Virus record (IMG/VR): IMGVR_UViG_3300032116_008492
Location: 1 to 36,313 of that record
Reading direction: 5' to 3' (one strand)
Length of the DNA stretch: 36,313 nucleotides
Origin: a virus
Shown: positions 2,940-34,490 of the stretch, piece after piece
Numbering within the stretch: the stretch's first letter is position 1
Layout of the letters: every line of letters starts with the position of its first letter
Notes under the pieces: generated by a model
The model's database searches: none
Told to the model about the DNA's origin: nothing
The model's input: the letters and a program-made list of their open reading frames with translations, nothing else
Program-made: the position numbers and the translations under genes

Positions 2940-3197
2940 ATGTCATTAAACGGAATAGCGCACTTGCCCACAAGACAAGAACGACAAGATGCCAAGTTAG
3001 CAATCGCCGAAGCAAAACGCCAAGGCAAAACAGTAGCACCAGATGGTACTATAAGCGGGTCAGTAGATCCTACTGCTCCTTGGTACAGAGACAATAACGT
3101 ATTAGATAAAAATCAACTACCAAACCCTTATAACGGTAATGAAATTGCTCCAGACGACGGCGCATCAACCTTAGTTCAAGGTAGGCCATGGGCGTAA
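2940..3197 (+). CDS. Hypothetical conserved small phage protein
   Basis: Eighty-five residues starting MSLNGIAHLPTRQERQDAKL, a helical K/R/E-rich N-terminus followed by a Pro/Asn/Gly-rich tail ending GRPWA. It resembles small proteins I remember from marine T4-like phages next to a large structural gene, but no function is known to me. An AGGAG box sits 6 nt upstream of the start, inside the end of the preceding gene. The 3' end overlaps the next gene by 10 bp, suggesting translational coupling with the large virion protein. Confidence 0.65.
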   Translation: MSLNGIAHLPTRQERQDAKLAIAEAKRQGKTVAPDGTISGSVDPTAPWYRDNNVLDKNQLPNPYNGNEIAPDDGASTLVQGRPWA

Positions 3198-5101
3198 GAA
3201 ATCAAAATTCGACAGGCTACGTTCATCCAGACGAACCCAACCTGTTAAATCTGCATAAGTCGATGAAGTACAATGCTTCAGGCGAGCCGCAAGTGCGTGT
3301 TCACGTTGACGGCATCAGCTTGGAAGGCGATGTCATTGTAGACAGAGTTAAACTATGGGATGGCACCAACGAGCTAACATTTGACTCTTCAGTCAATGAC
3401 GGCGAAGCATCTCCTACTGTAGTGTTGCCCACAGAAAATCACAACATGGTATTCAACGGTTCAACCTGGGACCGTATGCGTGGCACGATTGCAGATGGAG
3501 TGCTTACGCAGATATCCAATGATCGTATTGCTATTAGCAAAGACAATAACGCCAACGCCGCAGACAATCCTATCTATGTAAATGTAACTAACGGATCACT
3601 AACTGTTAGTGGTAGTGTTAGTATAATCAGTCTACCAGAAGTTGAAATTAAAAACGATATAGACAATCCTATACCTATTAGTAAAAACACCACTGCTAAC
3701 TCTAGCAGCAATCCAATAGACGTTACTGGTTCAGTTGACGCTACTATTAATGGCGAAGTGTCAGTAGCAGGTATGAATCCAGATGCGTTCGGTCGTCAGC
3801 GTGTTAGTGAACTGTTTACACTAGGTGACTACAAACATCTTTATGCTATAGATCCTAACTTTCTAGACAGCGTAAGCAATGGCGGTACTGTGACTTTTGA
3901 TGCTAATCAGGCAGCGGCTGTGTTAGCCACTAGTAGTAACACAAACTCTGTAGCTATACATCAAACTAAGTTCTATCACCACTACCAGCCTGGTAAGAGC
4001 CAATTAATCTATACAAGTGTTGTATTCCACGAACCAGATCGTAATGTGACTAAACGCACGGGTTATTTTGATGATCGTGATGGTATTTACTTTGAACAGG
4101 TAGGCAGCAATACAGCAGATGGATCAACAGTTAGCCCAACTACGCAAACTCTTAACTGGGTGATAAGAACTTACGTAGGCGGATCACCAAATGAAAGCGA
4201 TTATGTAACTACTATCAACGGAACACCTTATACTTATAAACGCCGTGTACCACAGACAGAGTGGAATAGAGATCGCTGTGATGGCACAGGCGGAGAAAAT
4301 AACCCTAGTGGATTTAAACTTGATGTTACTAAGACACAATTGTCTTGGATTGACTTTCAGTGGTTAGGTGTAGGCCGTGTTCGTTGCGGCTTTGTACATA
4401 ATGGTGAGTTGATTACGGCACACGAATACTATCACAGTAATGTATTACCCACAGTTTATATGAGTAATCCTAACTTGCCTGTTCGCTGTGAAATACGCAA
4501 TACAGGAACGACACCCGGCGGCGAAATGGATCAGATTTGTTCATCTGTAATGAGCGAAGGTGGATATATTGAATCAGGTATTGATTGGAGCGTTTATTCG
4601 ACAGAACGAGCAACACCTACACCAGGACGCACTAAGTTACCTGTTATTGCTATTAGATTGAAAAACAGTTTTCAAGGATACCCTAACAGATTGAGTGTAC
4701 GTCCGTTAACCCTGAGTTTATTTGCTAGAACAGAACCTATTGTGTTTGAATTTGTTAAACTACGTAGTGTGGCTGACCTCAGTACAGCATTGAACGACGG
4801 AGTATTAACTTGGACGTCAGCAGACTCGGATAGCGGTGTTGAGTATTGTACCAATGCTACTGCCTATGTAGAAGCCAATGCTGATCGATTTGCTTCAGGT
4901 TATGTACCAGCAGGCTCCAGCCAAAACAGTCTAAGTCCAGTGTCTACAGGCACACTGACTTCTGCTAAGAAGAACATTATTAGTCAAAATATAGACAGTA
5001 CTGGTAGTGAAATATTTGTAGTAGTAGCCAGCACTGTGTTTGCTGGTAATAATTTAACTGCTGATGTAGCTTGTAGTATTCAGTGGCGGGAGATTTATTA
5101 A
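3188..5101 (+). CDS. Large virion structural protein
   Basis: A 637-residue, beta-rich, Ser/Thr/Asn/Gly-rich protein without signal peptide or membrane segment. The N-terminal 200 residues contain repeated short beta units (DNPIPISKN / DNPIYVNV / SSNPIDVTG), typical of phage fibre or baseplate-periphery proteins. Residues about 200-510 look like a compact domain rich in Trp, Tyr and Arg, with GMNPDAFGRQRVSE at its start. The arrangement resembles a conserved cyanomyophage structural protein. It overlaps the upstream gene by 10 bp, and its stop codon overlaps the next ATG (TAATG at 5099-5103). Virion location is inferred from composition and neighbours; the exact position in the particle is unknown. 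Confidence 0.7.
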   Translation: MGVRNQNSTGYVHPDEPNLLNLHKSMKYNASGEPQVRVHVDGISLEGDVIVDRVKLWDGTNELTFDSSVNDGEASPTVVLPTENHNMVFNGSTWDRMRGTIADGVLTQISNDRIAISKDNNANAADNPIYVNVTNGSLTVSGSVSIISLPEVEIKNDIDNPIPISKNTTANSSSNPIDVTGSVDATINGEVSVAGMNPDAFGRQRVSELFTLGDYKHLYAIDPNFLDSVSNGGTVTFDANQAAAVLATSSNTNSVAIHQTKFYHHYQPGKSQLIYTSVVFHEPDRNVTKRTGYFDDRDGIYFEQVGSNTADGSTVSPTTQTLNWVIRTYVGGSPNESDYVTTINGTPYTYKRRVPQTEWNRDRCDGTGGENNPSGFKLDVTKTQLSWIDFQWLGVGRVRCGFVHNGELITAHEYYHSNVLPTVYMSNPNLPVRCEIRNTGTTPGGEMDQICSSVMSEGGYIESGIDWSVYSTERATPTPGRTKLPVIAIRLKNSFQGYPNRLSVRPLTLSLFARTEPIVFEFVKLRSVADLSTALNDGVLTWTSADSDSGVEYCTNATAYVEANADRFASGYVPAGSSQNSLSPVSTGTLTSAKKNIISQNIDSTGSEIFVVVASTVFAGNNLTADVACSIQWREIY

Positions 5102-17458: not shown

Positions 17459-19792
17459 ATGATTAACATTACAGTAACCAAACGGAGCGGTGAACGAGAA
17501 CCGCTAACTATTGAAAAATGGCAGGCGCAAATCCTAAAGGTATGTAGTGGCATAGCAGATGTTAGTCAGTCAATGATTGAGATCAAAGCACAACCTCATT
17601 TCTATGACGGTATCACAACAAGAGAAATTGATGAGATTACTCTACGTGCTATTGTAGATCTTATTGACACAGAATCTAACCCAGACATCGGACATACCAA
17701 CTATCAATACGTAGCAGGTAAGCAACGTGTTAGCATGTTACGTAAAGATGTGTATGGTGACTACCAACCCCCTTGCCTTTACGAAATCGTTAAAAAGAAT
17801 GTAGCAACAGGATTGTATACTGCTGAACTTCTTGAATGGTATTCAGAAGAAGACTGGCACAAAATGGAAGACATGATTGATCATGAAAAAGATGAGCAAT
17901 ATGGTTACGCTTCTATTGAACAGTTAATTGAAAAGTATCTTGTACGTAATCGTGCTACAAAGGAAATTTATGAAACTCCACAGGTTAGATATATGGTCGC
18001 GGCCGCTACTGTATTTCACAAAGAAGAACCGAACAGCGCGAGAATGCGCTACATCAAGGAATACTACAATGCTGCGAGTGATGGTCTATTTACTCTTGCT
18101 ACTCCCGTGCTTGCTGGTCTTGGAACTCCTACTAAACAATTCAGTAGTTGCGTTCTTATTCGCAGTGATGATGATTTGGACTCTATATTTGCTAGTGGAG
18201 AGATGATGGCCAAGTATGCTAGCAAACGTGCTGGCATCGGACTTGAGATTGGACGCCTACGCCCGTTGGGATCCCCTATTAGGGGAGGTGAGATAATGCA
18301 CACCGGCATGATTCCCTTCTTAAAGAAATGGTTCGGTGACCTACGTAGTTGTTCGCAAGGAGGTATTCGTAATGCAAGTGCTACTGTTTTTTATCCTATT
18401 TGGCATCATCAGTTTGATGATCTTATTGTCCTTAAGAACAACCAAGGAACAGAAGAAACCCGAGTCCGTTTTATGGATTATGGGGTTGTGCTTAGTGCCT
18501 TCTTCTGGAGACGATTTAAAAACAAAGAAGACATAACCTTCTTTGATCCTAACGAAGTTCCTGATCTTTACGAAGCTTTCTATAAAGACACTGCTCTATT
18601 TGAAGAGTTGTATGTCAAATACGAAAAACAAAAAGGTCTACGTAAAAAGACTATGAGTGCCGAGGAAGTATTCAAGTCAGGCATTTTAAAAGAACGTACA
18701 GATACAGGACGTATCTATCTAGTGTTTATTGACAATGTAATGAACCAGGGTCCGTTTGATCCTGAGTACCATACCATTTACCAGAGCAACCTTTGCTGTG
18801 AAATCCTATTACCTACTCGCTCTTTTAAACGTCTTGATGATCCCGATGGTCGTATCGCTTTATGTACACTTGGTAGCATCAACTGGGGAGCTTTCCGCAA
18901 CCCAGAAGATATGCGTAGGGCTTGCCGTATTCTTCACCGCAGCCTTAACAATATTCTCGATTACCAAGATTTTCTTTCTATCCAATCCAAGTTGAGCAAT
19001 GACGAGATTCGTCCGTTAGGTATTGGTGTAACTAACCTAGCTTACTGGCATGCCAAGCGTGGCATAAAATATGGTGATAAGGATGCTCTAGCAGAAGTTA
19101 AAAGCTGGATGGAACATCAAGCTTATTACTTAACAGAGTCTAGTGTTGAGTTAGCTAAAGAACGTGGCAAGTGCATAGGTAGTGACCAGACTCGTTATGG
19201 GCAAGGAATCTTTCCTTGGGAAACTCGTGCTCTTGGGTCTAATGAGCTTGCTGACTTTACTCCTGAGCTTGATTGGGAAACACTTCGTGTTCAAATGAAA
19301 CAACACGGAGTACGTAATGCTACACAAATGGCTATTGCTCCTGTAGAGTCTAGCTCAGTTGTTATTAATTCAACTAACGGTATTGAAATGCCAATGAGCC
19401 TGATTAGCGTAAAAGAATCTAAGGCTGGATCTTTTGTACAAGTTGTTCCTGAGTATCAGAATGCAAAAGTTCGTAAGAACTACCAACTGATGTGGGAACA
19501 AACAGATTGTGTACCCTACTTAAAAACCAGTGCAGTGCTACAAGTCTACATTGATCAAAGTATTTCAACAAACACATTTTATAATCCTGCACACTTTGAA
19601 GGCCGTAAAGTTCCTACAACACTAATTGCTAAGAACTTGATGCAAGCACAGATGTGGGGTATTAAAACATTCTATTACAGCTTGATCAATAAAGCTGGCG
19701 CTAAAGCACCTCAAGAAACTTCTATGGATGCTGTAGCATTAGCGCCTATAGATTTTGACGATGCTGATGATTGCGAGGCATGTAAACTATGA
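17459..19792 (+). CDS. nrdA: Class Ia ribonucleotide reductase large subunit
   Basis: The 777-residue alpha subunit reduces ribonucleoside diphosphates for phage DNA synthesis together with NrdB. An ATP-cone-like region occupies residues about 1-95. Active-site features are in place: C231 in [10 protein letters not shown]444-x-C446-x-E448 in SNLCCEI and C469 in [10 protein letters not shown], corresponding to C225, N437/C439/E441 and C462 of E. coli. The radical-transfer Tyr pair is in KTFYYS, and the C-terminal redox shuttle CEAC is at residues 772-775. Length is close to the E. coli 761. The stop overlaps the next ATG (ATGA at 19789-19792), coupling it to an Fe-S carrier. Glutaredoxin at 22235 is the likely reductant. 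Confidence 0.95.
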
Positions 19793-20115
19793 TTACTATA
19801 ACCGACTCTGCAAAGTCTAAAATTGTTGATTTGTTATTAGAGGAAAATAATCCTAACTTAAAGCTACGTACATTTGTACAAGGCGGAGGTTGCTCTGGTT
19901 TTCAATATGGCTTTACTTTTGATGAAGTTACTAACGAAGACGATTTTGAACTCGACGTTGACCAAACTTACAAAGTATTAGTAGATGCTATGAGTATGCA
20001 ATACTTGACAGGTGCAGTTATAGATTATAAAGAAGACTTGATGGGTTCTAATTTTAGTATTAGCAATCCCCAAGCACAATCAACTTGCGGTTGCGGCAGC
20101 AGTTTTTCAGTTTAA
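19789..20115 (+). CDS. erpA: ErpA-like A-type Fe-S cluster carrier
   Basis: The 108-residue protein carries the A-type carrier cysteines C35, C100 and C102 in [11 protein letters not shown] and [28 protein letters not shown] and the A-V/E-IDYKEDL-x-G segment are typical of ErpA of beta/gamma-proteobacteria rather than IscA. It should accept Fe-S clusters and deliver them to target proteins. It overlaps nrdA by 4 bp and is followed by a small membrane protein, IscU and a second A-type carrier, so the operon holds two distinct carriers and a scaffold. Distinguishing ErpA from SufA/IscA rests on motif resemblance. Confidence 0.85.
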
Positions 20116-20245: not shown

Positions 20246-20635
20246 ATGGCTTACTCTAGTCAAGTTATTGATCATTACGAAAATCCTCGTAATGTAGGAA
20301 GTTTTGATAAAACTGACACTGATGTTGGTACAGGTATGGTTGGTGCGCCTGCGTGTGGCGATGTTATGAAACTCCAAATCAAAGTAAATACAGATGGAGT
20401 CATTACAGATGCTAAATTCAAAACGTATGGTTGCGGCAGCGCGATTGCGTCGAGTTCGCTTGTTACTGAATGGGTCAAAGGACGGACACTTGACGAAGCG
20501 GCGCAGATTAAAAATAGCGAGATTGCTTCTGAGCTTGCCCTCCCCCCTGTTAAAATTCATTGTTCGATACTTGCGGAAGATGCAATCAAAGCGGCAGTAG
20601 AAGATTATCGTAAAAAGCATGATCTCAATAACTGA
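20246..20635 (+). CDS. iscU: Fe-S cluster scaffold protein IscU
   Basis: The 129-residue protein is a full-length IscU. The ligands are C37 (APACGD), D39, C63 (YGCGSAIASSS) and H105/C106 (KIHCS), in the same numbering as the E. coli protein. The LPPVK motif (99-103) recognised by the HscA/HscB chaperones is intact. It builds [2Fe-2S] clusters from cysteine-desulfurase sulfur. No iscS, hscA/B or fdx gene is in the window, so it must borrow the host desulfurase and chaperones. The A-type carrier downstream overlaps it by 17 bp. Confidence 0.95.
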   Translation: MAYSSQVIDHYENPRNVGSFDKTDTDVGTGMVGAPACGDVMKLQIKVNTDGVITDAKFKTYGCGSAIASSSLVTEWVKGRTLDEAAQIKNSEIASELALPPVKIHCSILAEDAIKAAVEDYRKKHDLNN

Positions 20636-20945
20636 AAAGGCTGCTGAAAAAATCAATCAGCAACTTAAACGCAGAGGCAAGGGATTAGGAATACGAGTTG
20701 GGGTAAAAACAACTGGTTGCTCAGGTCTTGCATATGTGTTAGAATATGTAGACGAATACAAAGCTGAAGTAGGTGTTATAAATTATGCCCAACAAGATTT
20801 TGTAGTTTTAGTAGATGCTAAAAGTCAAGTCTATCTCGATGGATTAACAATAGATTGGATTCGCAACGGATTGAATGAAGGATTTGAATTTAAAAATCCA
20901 AATGAACGTGACCGCTGCGGTTGCGGGGAAAGTTTTAGAATATAA
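20619..20945 (+). CDS. iscA: IscA-type Fe-S cluster carrier
   Basis: A second A-type carrier of 108 residues, with C34 in TTGCSGLAYVLEYVD and C100/C102 in RCGCGESFRI. The GCSGLAY segment is of IscA type, unlike the ErpA-like protein at 19789, so the two are not a recent duplication. It overlaps iscU by 17 bp. NrdB follows after 8 bp. Delivery of clusters or iron to phage or host Fe-S enzymes is the inferred role; candidates in this window are the radical SAM enzyme at 25611 and the host ferredoxin that feeds the bilin reductase. Confidence 0.9.
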   Translation: MISITEKAAEKINQQLKRRGKGLGIRVGVKTTGCSGLAYVLEYVDEYKAEVGVINYAQQDFVVLVDAKSQVYLDGLTIDWIRNGLNEGFEFKNPNERDRCGCGESFRI

Positions 20946-20953
20946 AGAGCACT

Positions 20954-22054
20954 ATGTCAAAAAAACAATATAACTTATCAACAAAGACAGACTATCTAAA
21001 TCGTAAGATGTTTCTAGATCCAGCGGGTCCAGTTACTATACAACGCTTTGAAGAAGTCAAATACAATAAAATTGCAGACTTTGAAAAAACTGCAAGGGGT
21101 TTCTTCTGGGTCCCAGAAGAAGTAAGTCTTACAAAAGACGCACAAGATTTTAAGGATGCCAGCGATGCGGTTAAACATATCTTCACTAGCAACTTGCTTA
21201 GGCAAACTGCTCTTGACAGTTTGCAAGGCCGTGGCCCAAGTCAAATCTTTACTCCGGTCGTGAGTCTACCAGAGCTAGAAGCATTAGTTTACAATTGGAC
21301 ATTCTTTGAAACTAATATTCACAGTCGTAGTTACAGCCACATCATTCGTAATATCTATAATGTGCCTAAGGAAGTTTTTAGTACTATCCATGACACTAAA
21401 GAAATTGTTGAAATGGCTTCAAGCGTAGGCAAGTACTACGATGATCTCCATGTAATCAACTGCCGAAAAGAAACAGGTGAAATTATTGATGAACATGAGC
21501 ACATCAAAGCAATCTATCTAGCACTACATGCAAGTTATGCCTTAGAAGCATTCCGATTCATGGTTAGTTTTGCTACTAGCTTGGCAATGGTAGAGAACAA
21601 GATCTTTATTGGTAATGGTAACATTATCAGCCTGATTCTACAAGACGAGCTATTGCACAAAGGTTGGACAGCCTTCTTGATTAATCAAGTGGTTAAAGAA
21701 GATCAACGTTTTGCCAAAGTAAAGCTAGAGTGCGAAGCTGAAGTTTATCAAATTTACATGGATGTTATTTGTGAAGAAAAAGAATGGGCAGATTATTTGT
21801 TTAAGCTAGGTCCTGTAATTGGTCTTAATGCTAACATTCTAAAAGACTTTGTTGATTACACCGCAGTGGGCGCACTGAAAGATATCGGTATCAAGTATCT
21901 TGCACACGCACCAAAATCAACTCCTATTCCGTGGTTCAACAAGCACAGTGACACAAGTAAGAAACAAACTGCACTGCAAGAGAACGAATCGACTAACTAT
22001 GTTATAGGCGTTATGAGTGATCAATTAGACTACGACGCTCTACCAAGCATTTAA
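20954..22054 (+). CDS. nrdB: Class Ia ribonucleotide reductase small subunit
   Basis: The 366-residue beta subunit holds the diiron-tyrosyl radical cofactor. Probable ligands are D88 (LDSLQGR), E119 and H123, then E in YALEAFRF, and E and H in LQDELLHKG; the radical Tyr is Y127 in HSRSYSH. The usual first-helix motif E-T-I-H is here E-T-N-I-H, one residue longer, which changes the register between Glu and His. The C-terminus is Asp- and hydrophobic-rich, as needed to bind NrdA. It is separated from nrdA by the Fe-S genes, an unusual order. Confidence 0.93.
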   Translation: MSKKQYNLSTKTDYLNRKMFLDPAGPVTIQRFEEVKYNKIADFEKTARGFFWVPEEVSLTKDAQDFKDASDAVKHIFTSNLLRQTALDSLQGRGPSQIFTPVVSLPELEALVYNWTFFETNIHSRSYSHIIRNIYNVPKEVFSTIHDTKEIVEMASSVGKYYDDLHVINCRKETGEIIDEHEHIKAIYLALHASYALEAFRFMVSFATSLAMVENKIFIGNGNIISLILQDELLHKGWTAFLINQVVKEDQRFAKVKLECEAEVYQIYMDVICEEKEWADYLFKLGPVIGLNANILKDFVDYTAVGALKDIGIKYLAHAPKSTPIPWFNKHSDTSKKQTALQENESTNYVIGVMSDQLDYDALPSI

Positions 22055-32493: not shown

Positions 32494-32919
32494 ATGAACG
32501 CATTAACACGATTTGACACTCAAGCTCTAAACAGAGCACTTATTGGATTTGACAGCCTTTTCAACGATGTTGAAAAGCGATTTGCAAACTCCGTACAAAC
32601 TAACTATCCTCCATACAACGTACTAAAACATGATGACGATCACTTTGAGATCGAAATCGCTGTGGCAGGCTTTGACAAAGAGGATGTTACTATTGAGGTT
32701 GATCAAAATTTGCTGACTATCAAAGGCACTCGTTTAAAAGATGACAATGCTAGCAAATACCTACACCGAGGTCTTGCTGCTCGCGACTTTGAACGATCAT
32801 TTACACTTGCAGAACACATGGTTGTGGGCGATGCAGAGTTGACTAATGGTATCTTAAGTGTTAAACTAACACGTGAAGTACCTGAAGCACTCAAGCCTCG
32901 TTTGATTGCAATTAAGTAA
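32494..32919 (+). CDS. ibpA: Hsp20/IbpA-type small heat-shock protein
   Basis: The start is 32494, after AAGGAG at 32482; an upstream in-frame ATG at 32473 lies in the leader stem. The 141-residue product is an alpha-crystallin protein of IbpA type: a short N-terminus (MNALTRFDTQALNRALIGFDSLF), core strands YNVLKHDDDHFEIEIAVAGFDKEDVTIEVD and LLTIKGT, and LSVKLTREVPE near the end. The C-terminal I-x-I/V-like tail is PRLIAIK. It holds unfolding proteins for refolding. A late promoter and a structured leader precede it; a terminator follows. Confidence 0.88.
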   Translation: MNALTRFDTQALNRALIGFDSLFNDVEKRFANSVQTNYPPYNVLKHDDDHFEIEIAVAGFDKEDVTIEVDQNLLTIKGTRLKDDNASKYLHRGLAARDFERSFTLAEHMVVGDAELTNGILSVKLTREVPEALKPRLIAIK

Positions 32920-32928
32920 ATATTATTA

Positions 32929-32953
32929 GGGGGAGGCAACTCCCCCACTTTTT
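32929..32953 (+). terminator. Intrinsic terminator between hsp20 and clpS
   Basis: GGGGGAG, loop GCAA (a GNRA tetraloop), CTCCCCC, then ACTTTTT: a 7-bp GC-rich stem plus a T-run. It follows the hsp20 stop by 9 nt and ends 11 nt before ATG 32964 of clpS. Read-through past it would feed clpS, heme oxygenase and bilin reductase. It may act as an attenuator. Confidence 0.8.
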
Positions 32954-32963
32954 GGAGTATATT

Positions 32964-33266
32964 ATGTCAGCAACTGATGTTCAAATTGACGAAAAAATTA
33001 AACAAAAATTAGAAGAACCTAAGCGTTGGAAGGTTGTATTTTTAAACGATGATTCGACTCCTATTGATTTTGTAGTGGGGTTGCTAACAGAAACTTTTAA
33101 GCACACTCAAGAAACAGCAAAACAAATTACTTTAGAGATACATAATGAAGGTAGTGGAATTGCTGGTGTTTATAGTTTTGAAATTGCTGAAGCAAAAGCA
33201 GTTGAAGCAACACAGTTAGCTAGAGGCAACGGATTTCCATTACAAATTAAAATGGAAGAAGAATGA
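32964..33266 (+). CDS. clpS: ClpS-like adaptor of ClpAP protease
   Basis: ATG 32964 is chosen, with GGAG 7 nt upstream; an in-frame ATG at 32952 lies inside the terminator. The 100-residue product has the N-degron pocket: N28-D29-D30 and T32 (FLNDDSTPIDFV), with H60 in EIHNEGSGIAGVY matching H66 of E. coli ClpS. The gate residue, Met in E. coli, is Ile34. ClpS delivers N-end-rule proteins to ClpA. A phage copy might redirect host proteolysis or compete for ClpA. It overlaps the heme oxygenase gene by 4 bp (ATGA). Confidence 0.88.
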   Translation: MSATDVQIDEKIKQKLEEPKRWKVVFLNDDSTPIDFVVGLLTETFKHTQETAKQITLEIHNEGSGIAGVYSFEIAEAKAVEATQLARGNGFPLQIKMEEE

Positions 33267-33808
33267 GTTTAAAAGAAATCACAAAAGATCTGCATCACGA
33301 AGCAGAAACTACAACATTTGCCAAGATGTTACTCAGTGGTAAAATTGGCAAGCAAGAGTATAAGAACTATTTGTACAACTTGTTGGCAATTTACGATCCA
33401 ATAGAATGGTATTGTAAACGTCAAGGATTTTTTGATACAGTTCCAGACTTGCCTAGACTCAAAGGCATATTAGCAGACTTTATGGAATTAGACGATGGCA
33501 CATACTGCTATCTAACTCCTGCAACACTTGATTATCAGGCGTATCTACATGCACTAGGTAATGACCCCGACAATAGGCACTTAGTAAAAGCTCATCTATA
33601 TGTAAGACATATGGGTGATTTATTCGGAGGCCAAATTATCAAAAAACAAGTGGCACATATTTCAAGCGGCAAGTTCTATGAATTTGACAATGCTGATGCT
33701 ATGAAGATGTCTATCCGCAGTATGTTGACAGACGACTTAGGCGAAGAAGCCAAGATGGCGTTTGAGTATGCCATCGCTATGATGAGAGATCTATATGACG
33801 GCGAGTAA
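33263..33808 (+). CDS. ho1: Heme oxygenase
   Basis: The 181-residue protein is a full heme oxygenase, somewhat shorter than cyanobacterial HO-1. The proximal ligand motif H-x-x-A-E is DLHHEAE (probably H11), and the signature YVRHMGDLFGGQIIKK near residues 113-128 matches the distal helix with its flexible glycines. It cleaves heme to biliverdin IX-alpha, CO and iron. It is translationally coupled to clpS and overlaps the bilin reductase by 14 bp, giving a complete heme-to-bilin module. The released iron could also feed the phage Fe-S or diiron enzymes. Confidence 0.92.
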   Translation: MSLKEITKDLHHEAETTTFAKMLLSGKIGKQEYKNYLYNLLAIYDPIEWYCKRQGFFDTVPDLPRLKGILADFMELDDGTYCYLTPATLDYQAYLHALGNDPDNRHLVKAHLYVRHMGDLFGGQIIKKQVAHISSGKFYEFDNADAMKMSIRSMLTDDLGEEAKMAFEYAIAMMRDLYDGE

Positions 33809-34487
33809 AGTTTGGGATACATTAATTGAAATTGAAAAGCGGCTCGAGGCCGCTTTTTATGCCACTGGTAGTATTATACATGAACCTGGAATGGATCGTT
33901 TTAATCAACCAGGTTGGATTAACAAAGTTTGGGCCAGCAGCCAGTATCGACGAGCGCATATTGATGTAGTAGATGCCCGTGAAACTAAAGGACTTTGGAT
34001 GATGCACTGCTGTGTATTTCCTCATCTAGATAACCCTGCTCCAATTTTTGGATTCGATGTTGTAGCAGGCAAAAACAAAATCACTGGATGTTTTATTGAT
34101 TACAGCCCATCTGGCAATACTACTCACCCTATGATAGAATACTTCGGAGAAGAAGTCAGTAGATATGACTGGCACAAACCTCGTGCATTGCCTGAATGGG
34201 CACAACGTATTTTTAGCAAACATATGGTTGCAGCTGGTAATGTCAGTGATGAAAATGAACTAGCCCAGATTTCCAGTCTTGCTTCTATATTAGTTAACCA
34301 TTACTTAGAAACAGTAGGCGAAACTAAAGGAACTGCTGATCTTGTTACGGTAAAAGCAGCACAGAACTTTTACGCACAAAATCAAAAGCAAAATCCGCAC
34401 ACTCCCAAAGTTATGGTAAGTCTCGGACTAAGTGAAGAGGATGTTACAGCATTCGTTCAAGAATGTCTGTTCCCTGAAATAGCATAA
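33795..34487 (+). CDS. pcyX: Ferredoxin-dependent bilin reductase (PcyA/PcyX family)
   Basis: The 230-residue protein resembles PcyA throughout: RRAHIDVVDA, then MMHCCVFPHLDNPAPIFGFDVVAG and ITGCFIDYSPSG, and RALPEWAQRIFS. By eye-alignment to Synechocystis PcyA, H71 matches His88 and D88 matches Asp105, both catalytic. PcyA Glu76, needed for exovinyl reduction, is Asp57 here, so the product is more likely phycoerythrobilin than phycocyanobilin. PcyX reductases beside a heme oxygenase are known from uncultured marine phages thought not to infect cyanobacteria; this gene fits that type. It overlaps ho1 by 14 bp. The PcyX name is a family-level judgement. Confidence 0.8.
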   Translation: MTASKVWDTLIEIEKRLEAAFYATGSIIHEPGMDRFNQPGWINKVWASSQYRRAHIDVVDARETKGLWMMHCCVFPHLDNPAPIFGFDVVAGKNKITGCFIDYSPSGNTTHPMIEYFGEEVSRYDWHKPRALPEWAQRIFSKHMVAAGNVSDENELAQISSLASILVNHYLETVGETKGTADLVTVKAAQNFYAQNQKQNPHTPKVMVSLGLSEEDVTAFVQECLFPEIA

Positions 34488-34490
34488 ATA
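34484..34490 (+). promoter_or_regulatory. Late promoter ATAAATA, 7 nt before ATG 34498
   Basis: GCATAAATACTCTACTATG overlaps the bilin reductase stop. No ribosome-binding site fits before ATG, so this is another leaderless-type late promoter. Confidence 0.62.

Follow-up and report, generated by a model that had tools for sequence, protein, structure and literature searches.

Cassettes that join a heme oxygenase (HO) gene to a gene for a ferredoxin-dependent bilin reductase (FDBR) are known from aquatic phages. Wegner et al. 2024 described phages of marine and fresh waters whose hemO-pcyA/X cassettes, akin to that of Mosig, frequently include a viral 5-aminolevulinate synthase; they called the purpose of these cassettes "enigmatic" and raised iron supply and photoreceptors (PMC11480375). 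In Mosig EXVC030M, whose host is not a cyanobacterium, and in the uncultured marine viruses represented by PcyX_EBK42635 (PDB 5owg), the HO and FDBR genes are adjacent and overlapping. The Mosig pair is preceded by 2OG-Fe(II) oxygenases, endonuclease V and ferrochelatase, with no adjoining clpS, hsp20 or dnaK; clpS, hsp20 and DnaK were likewise not found in the main text of the 2024 paper. PcyX produces phycoerythrobilin (PEB), whereas a freshwater phage enzyme lacking Asp55 of PcyX yields phycocyanobilin (PCB) (PMC11480375). Cyanophages P-SSM2 and P-SSM4 (PebS, PcyA) also carry an FDBR, but outside the PcyX clade, and in P-SSM2 the HO gene is far from pebS, with psbA near HO. The 2024 paper leaves the question of why phages of non-photosynthetic bacteria make bilins.

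Here we analyse a viral DNA of 36,313 nucleotides (IMG/VR record IMGVR_UViG_3300032116_008492; hereafter the window), together with related loci from IMG/VR and public assemblies.

A heme oxygenase overlapping a PcyX-type bilin reductase

An earlier note, made from the sequence, had placed an HO and a bilin reductase at 33263-34487, likened the reductase to PcyX-type enzymes and located Asp57 at the position of PcyA Glu76. Open reading frames, domain searches, structure comparison and alignment bear out all three points:

33263..33808 (+), heme oxygenase, 181 aa
33795..34487 (+), PcyX-type FDBR, 230 aa

The two reading frames share 14 bases. The compact HO matches Pfam Heme_oxygenase (PF01126, E 1.2e-21), and its AlphaFold model (pLDDT 91) has the HO fold, with rat HO-1 and HmuO as matches (Foldseek E ~1e-8, TM ~0.8-0.86). 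The proximal His11 and the residues of the distal-helix GD..GG motif (Gly118, Asp119, Gly122, Gly123) are unchanged in 83/83 sequences. On sequence and model, the protein is predicted to convert heme to biliverdin as an enzyme of the HO-1/HmuO type. It is just 31% identical to the Mosig HO.

The reductase matches Pfam Fe_bilin_red (PF05996, E 9.1e-16). Its best PDB match is 5owg (E 6.5e-67), PcyA following only at E 1.8e-14. Besides Asp57, alignment identifies His71 and Asp88 as the retained counterparts of PcyA His88 and Asp105. Each of the 82 PcyX-type sequences in the first alignment has Asp at the Glu76 position, where the Acetobacteraceae and cyanobacterial enzymes have Glu. The FDBRs of Mosig and 5owg are 46-47% identical to that of the window and have the Asp/His/Asp active site in common with it. 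In a tree of 58 rows, which we read for its major split only because branches are long and the bootstrap had not settled, the window groups with 5owg and pelagiphage Mosig (support 97/99). This PcyX clade is sister to alphaproteobacterial PcyA and distant from cyanobacterial PcyA. The earlier note had named placement among cyanobacterial PcyA or PebS as grounds for giving up its reading; the window falls outside both. A divergent reductase (33%) on a Shewanella surugensis contig (L088:360-1130) has Asn at the Glu76 position.

We conclude that the family-level identity of both enzymes is settled. An intact stretch and relatives encoded on hundreds of other viral contigs rule out a chance match or annotation artefact, as do the Pfam hits, the 5owg match and the HO fold. 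A PcyA or PebS identity is excluded by Asp57 in place of Glu76 and by the tree. Since the enzyme keeps the Asp that accompanies PEB formation in PcyX (rule from PMC11480375), its product, judged from this residue and from the clade, is most likely PEB.

The pair lies in a conserved block with clpS and chaperone genes

Directly upstream of the pair, on the same strand, are three further elements:

32494..32919 (+), hsp20, small heat-shock protein (PF00011, E 8.6e-19; phrog_432, E 3.4e-39), its ATG following AAGGAG
32929..32946 (+), hairpin GGGGGAG-GCAA-CTCCCCC between hsp20 and clpS
32964..33266 (+), clpS, adaptor of ClpAP (PF02617, E 2.9e-27), its stop overlapping the HO start as ATGA

A MazG-like gene and a 3'-5' exonuclease gene also lie upstream of the pair, beside those for ClpS and Hsp20.

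A search of IMG/VR with the reductase gave 340 stretches encoding a relative, and we examined the neighbourhoods of the best 80 of these 340. The order hsp20-clpS-HO-FDBR recurs around them, with dnaK 5' of hsp20 in about 60 of the 80. Because these loci had been picked by their reductase, the search was repeated with the HO alignment alone. Among the HO-anchored loci, clpS was present in 78/79, FDBR in 75/75 of those with room for it, and the exact order dnaK-hsp20-clpS-HO-FDBR in 67/79. These counts are not independent events, because many contigs are closely related and some occur in both sets; at 88% identity the reductases, counted together with the reference rows, form about 39 groups. 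The window holds the whole recurrent set (hsp20, hairpin, clpS, HO, FDBR) save dnaK, of which there is none in this 36 kb fragment. The dnaK genes of the lineage (L043:2549-4444 and most related loci) are mostly full length and 60-89% identical to one another.

The four-base ATGA overlap of clpS and HO occurs in 52/71 loci, including the window; in most loci HO also overlaps FDBR, as it does in the window. With clpS and HO usually overlapping by four bases, clpS-HO-pcyX looks like a coupled trio, and that of the window, behind hsp20, is probably translationally coupled. The residues of the ClpS N-degron pocket, which we take to correspond to N34, D35 and H66 of E. coli, are unchanged in 71/71 loci. 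The pair does not depend on ClpS, since Mosig and several loci of our set (for example L013-L032) have HO-FDBR with no adjoining clpS. Phage ClpP is encoded on 6/13 contigs, so some members of the lineage may supply their own peptidase.

The spacer that separates the hsp20 stop from the clpS start holds a stem of 7 bp or more in 46/46 distinct sequences; among shuffled spacers, a stem of at least 6 bp arose in 242/920. The loop is often of the GNRA type and a T run seldom follows the stem. In the 27 sequences with a loop-fixed register, both partners of a pair are seen to change together, as from G-C to A-T. An Rfam search returned no match. The hairpin may terminate the hsp20 transcript or shield a clpS-HO-pcyX message at its 5' end.

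Within the block, HO and reductase do not diverge in step. For reductase pairs that are 80-90% alike, HO identity spans 32-86% (5th-95th percentile), and at 60% identity the HOs fall into nine groups versus three for the reductases. HO is either fast-diverging or exchanged within the block.

The HO-PcyX pair itself is not new: it has been published for the isolated pelagiphage Mosig as well as for further aquatic phages, and that work likewise concluded that its role is not yet known (PMC11480375). New is the occurrence of HO-PcyX in one block with clpS and chaperone genes across dozens of relatives; a search of the openly licensed literature found no report of clpS or chaperone coupling to HO-PcyX. 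The fuller genomic setting that the note had drawn from clpS and hsp20 stands, but the note missed clpS as part of the unit, as well as dnaK and the 5-aminolevulinate synthase and Fe-S proteins of relatives.

Iron, heme synthesis and electron donors in the lineage

Elsewhere in the window, Fe-S assembly genes lie between ribonucleotide reductase genes:

19789..20115 (+), A-type Fe-S carrier, IscA-like (PF01521, E 5.8e-18), putative iron acceptor
20246..20635 (+), IscU/NifU-like Fe-S scaffold (PF01592, E 5e-53; phrog_8429), putative iron acceptor
20619..20945 (+), second A-type Fe-S carrier (PF01521, E 4e-17), putative iron acceptor
20954..22054 (+), class I ribonucleotide reductase small subunit (phrog_86, E 2.2e-112), putative user of the iron

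IscU is encoded on 15/28 related contigs. 5-Aminolevulinate synthase is encoded on 11/28, including 5/6 of those longer than 100 kb, at sites not adjacent to HO-FDBR; it is not among the ORFs adjoining the pair in the window fragment. Large contigs of the lineage therefore carry HO, FDBR and 5-aminolevulinate synthase, as do the valaS-hemO-pcyA/X phages of Wegner et al. Ferrochelatase, present in Mosig, was found on 0/13 phage contigs, its sole match being in the genome that holds L086.

None of the 28 related contigs encodes a Fer2 ferredoxin (positive controls were recovered), a phytochrome domain or psbA, nor, above the cut-off, a phycobilisome-family protein (PF00502). A phage-encoded donor of the Fer2 type was accordingly rejected for these 28 contigs. 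Given relatives that lack this ferredoxin, we infer that host ferredoxin most likely feeds electrons to both HO and PcyX.

Hosts and habitat

The earlier note had hinted at a non-cyanobacterial host and remarked on the lack of photosystem genes. The latter observation covered a 36 kb fragment only and now extends to the 28 related contigs, which lack psbA as well. PmoC/AmoC is encoded on two cassette contigs of 188 and 259 kb, in a 29-record set to which large HO-anchored contigs had been added. DnaK from locus L043 reaches 77% identity with Pseudomonadota homologues, which points to a host no finer than "Pseudomonadota-like". VP_1254, a Lake Baikal phage assigned to the methanotroph Methyloglobulus, is a freshwater phage that has DnaK and curli genes in common with the lineage of the window, but it is a fragment of about 17 kb and heme, bilin and Clp are unmentioned in its description (PMC7678222). 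From these observations, the hosts of the lineage are probably non-phototrophic proteobacteria, and the hint of the note is supported to that extent. Some phages with the block probably infect methane- or ammonia-oxidising bacteria, and pmoC/amoC on cassette contigs links the block to hosts some of whose relatives can be cultured.

Loci of relatives come from lake and freshwater datasets such as 3300009164 (Lake Simoncouche) and 3300020160 (a freshwater bacterioplankton study), and the phage of the window is itself probably a freshwater phage. PcyX has so far been marine in PMC11480375; the lake datasets take PcyX-type enzymes beyond the sea. A 24 kb megablast against phage records gave no match.

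Three loci (L085, L086 and L087) lie on public metagenome-assembled contigs, one of them 335 kb long, labelled Halobacteroidaceae, Neomarinimicrobiota and Rickettsiales. We rejected a bacterial origin because the neighbours of the block belong to this phage lineage; the labels most likely reflect misbinning.

A possible role in heme turnover and its alternatives

As a whole, the clpS-HO-pcyX block would best be explained by heme turnover in the infected cell with electrons from host ferredoxin, a reading that we hold with slightly better than even confidence. HO would open heme to biliverdin, setting free Fe(II) and CO, and the PcyX-type FDBR would carry out a four-electron reduction of biliverdin, most likely to PEB. 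By removing biliverdin, the reductase would relieve the hold of the product on HO. ClpS would direct host ClpAP to N-degron substrates, while unfolded proteins would fall to Hsp20, joined in most relatives by a DnaK of the phage. Hemoproteins and excess heme would in this way be dismantled in a non-phototrophic, probably proteobacterial host. The freed iron could pass to ribonucleotide reductase and to the Fe-S assembly proteins that the phage encodes, and heme, a pro-oxidant, would be turned into a less harmful bilin. The benefit to the phage may be iron, heme removal or the bilin. In a large set of loci the pair is coupled to ClpS downstream of Hsp20 and, as a rule, DnaK, an arrangement that suggests turnover of heme and protein and not light harvesting. 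That the block acts on heme and protein turnover jointly is a tentative proposal, to which we give rather less than even weight; the substrates of ClpAP offer a concrete, testable partner.

The genes could instead form a general stress kit in which DnaK, Hsp20 and ClpS deal with proteins, HO and PcyX deal with heme and oxidants, and all are co-expressed with no mutual action. The fixed order with chaperone genes in 67/79 loci speaks for such a kit, as do the moraphages, large aquatic phages some of which carry DnaK and Hsp20; heme oxygenase, bilin, ClpS and curli are unmentioned in their description (PMC12619734). Most predicted hosts of moraphages are Bacteroidota. Against such a kit, the overlap of clpS and HO is closer than co-expression requires, and the HO-PcyX pair of Mosig adjoins iron and heme genes, not chaperones. 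We regard a mere stress kit as unlikely.

Heme turnover for the sake of iron must also be weighed against the bilin itself as the goal. The strongest objection to the favoured reading is that heme made by way of 5-aminolevulinate synthase and then broken yields zero net iron, which points to the bilin, or to the flux of heme, as the aim. 5-Aminolevulinate synthase would push, HO and PcyX would pull, and PEB would load a host photoreceptor or bilin-binding globin, or shield it from biliverdin. The frequency of the synthase on contigs above 100 kb fits this account, a Bradyrhizobium hemO-pcyA-alaS island includes a phytochrome gene (PMC11480375), and pre-PcyA enzymes are accompanied by bilin-binding globins (PMC10151467). 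The cassette itself, however, has no visible photoreceptor or globin gene, and the 28 related contigs revealed neither a phytochrome domain nor an above-cut-off phycobilisome-family protein. Its probability is similarly low.

In the boldest alternative, the phage would take control of tetrapyrrole metabolism, with ClpS as the regulatory arm of this takeover. ClpS would deliver a host heme-pathway enzyme (for example glutamyl-tRNA reductase) or hemoproteins to ClpAP, and phage 5-aminolevulinate synthase, HO and PcyX would replace synthesis and breakdown. The overlap of clpS with HO would suit such an arrangement, and relatives encode a potential replacement for glutamyl-tRNA reductase in 5-aminolevulinate synthase. 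According to PMC6597238, binding of ClpS to glutamyl-tRNA reductase in plants brings about proteolysis of the reductase by Clp, and the bacterial enzyme is degraded by Clp and Lon; the passage on bacteria names these two and not ClpS. Large phages of other lineages likewise encode ClpS, which may thus be of general use to phages. We consider this takeover distinctly doubtful.

As to the product, the window reductase could work as a PcyA and yield PCB. The enzyme of the freshwater phage CB_2, formerly put between PcyX and PcyA, produces PCB (PMC11480375), but it lacks the PcyX Asp, unlike the window and all aligned phage relatives, which have it and cluster with PcyX. PCB is thus a very unlikely product. 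Least credible is a cyanophage supplying the phycobilisomes of its host: cyanophage S-RIM32 matches part of a virion protein at 64% identity and PcyX engineered into Synechococcus can provide PEB to phycobilisomes (PMC13197396), but the lack of psbA and of above-cut-off phycobiliproteins on the 28 related contigs, pmoC/amoC on two contigs and the Pseudomonadota-like DnaK of a relative all speak against it.

Additional features of the lineage

In two relatives from metagenome-assembled genomes, a nitrilase-like gene splits HO from the reductase (L086:8916-9971 and L087:8467-9977), in L087 together with a 2OG-oxygenase-like gene, and at L078:7369-8001 a class II aldolase-like gene lies between the two (all named by eye). 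At 34483-34490 of the window, CATAAATA resembles a T4 late-promoter box, directly 5' of the gene for a 576-aa protein downstream of the reductase. The virion protein encoded at 3188-5101 is 64% identical to that of cyanophage S-RIM32 over residues 199-637, against 33-35% for the other relatives listed, which suggests exchange.

The contig of L001, identical to the window over their shared stretch, runs beyond the window end. At L001:10933-16690 it encodes CsgF- and CsgG-like proteins, followed by two curlin-repeat-like proteins, one FecR-like and one CHASE2-like protein (named by eye). Pelagimyophages reportedly lack CsgA and CsgB (PMC7029224), and the curlin-repeat-like proteins of L001 thus make a fuller phage curli system possible.
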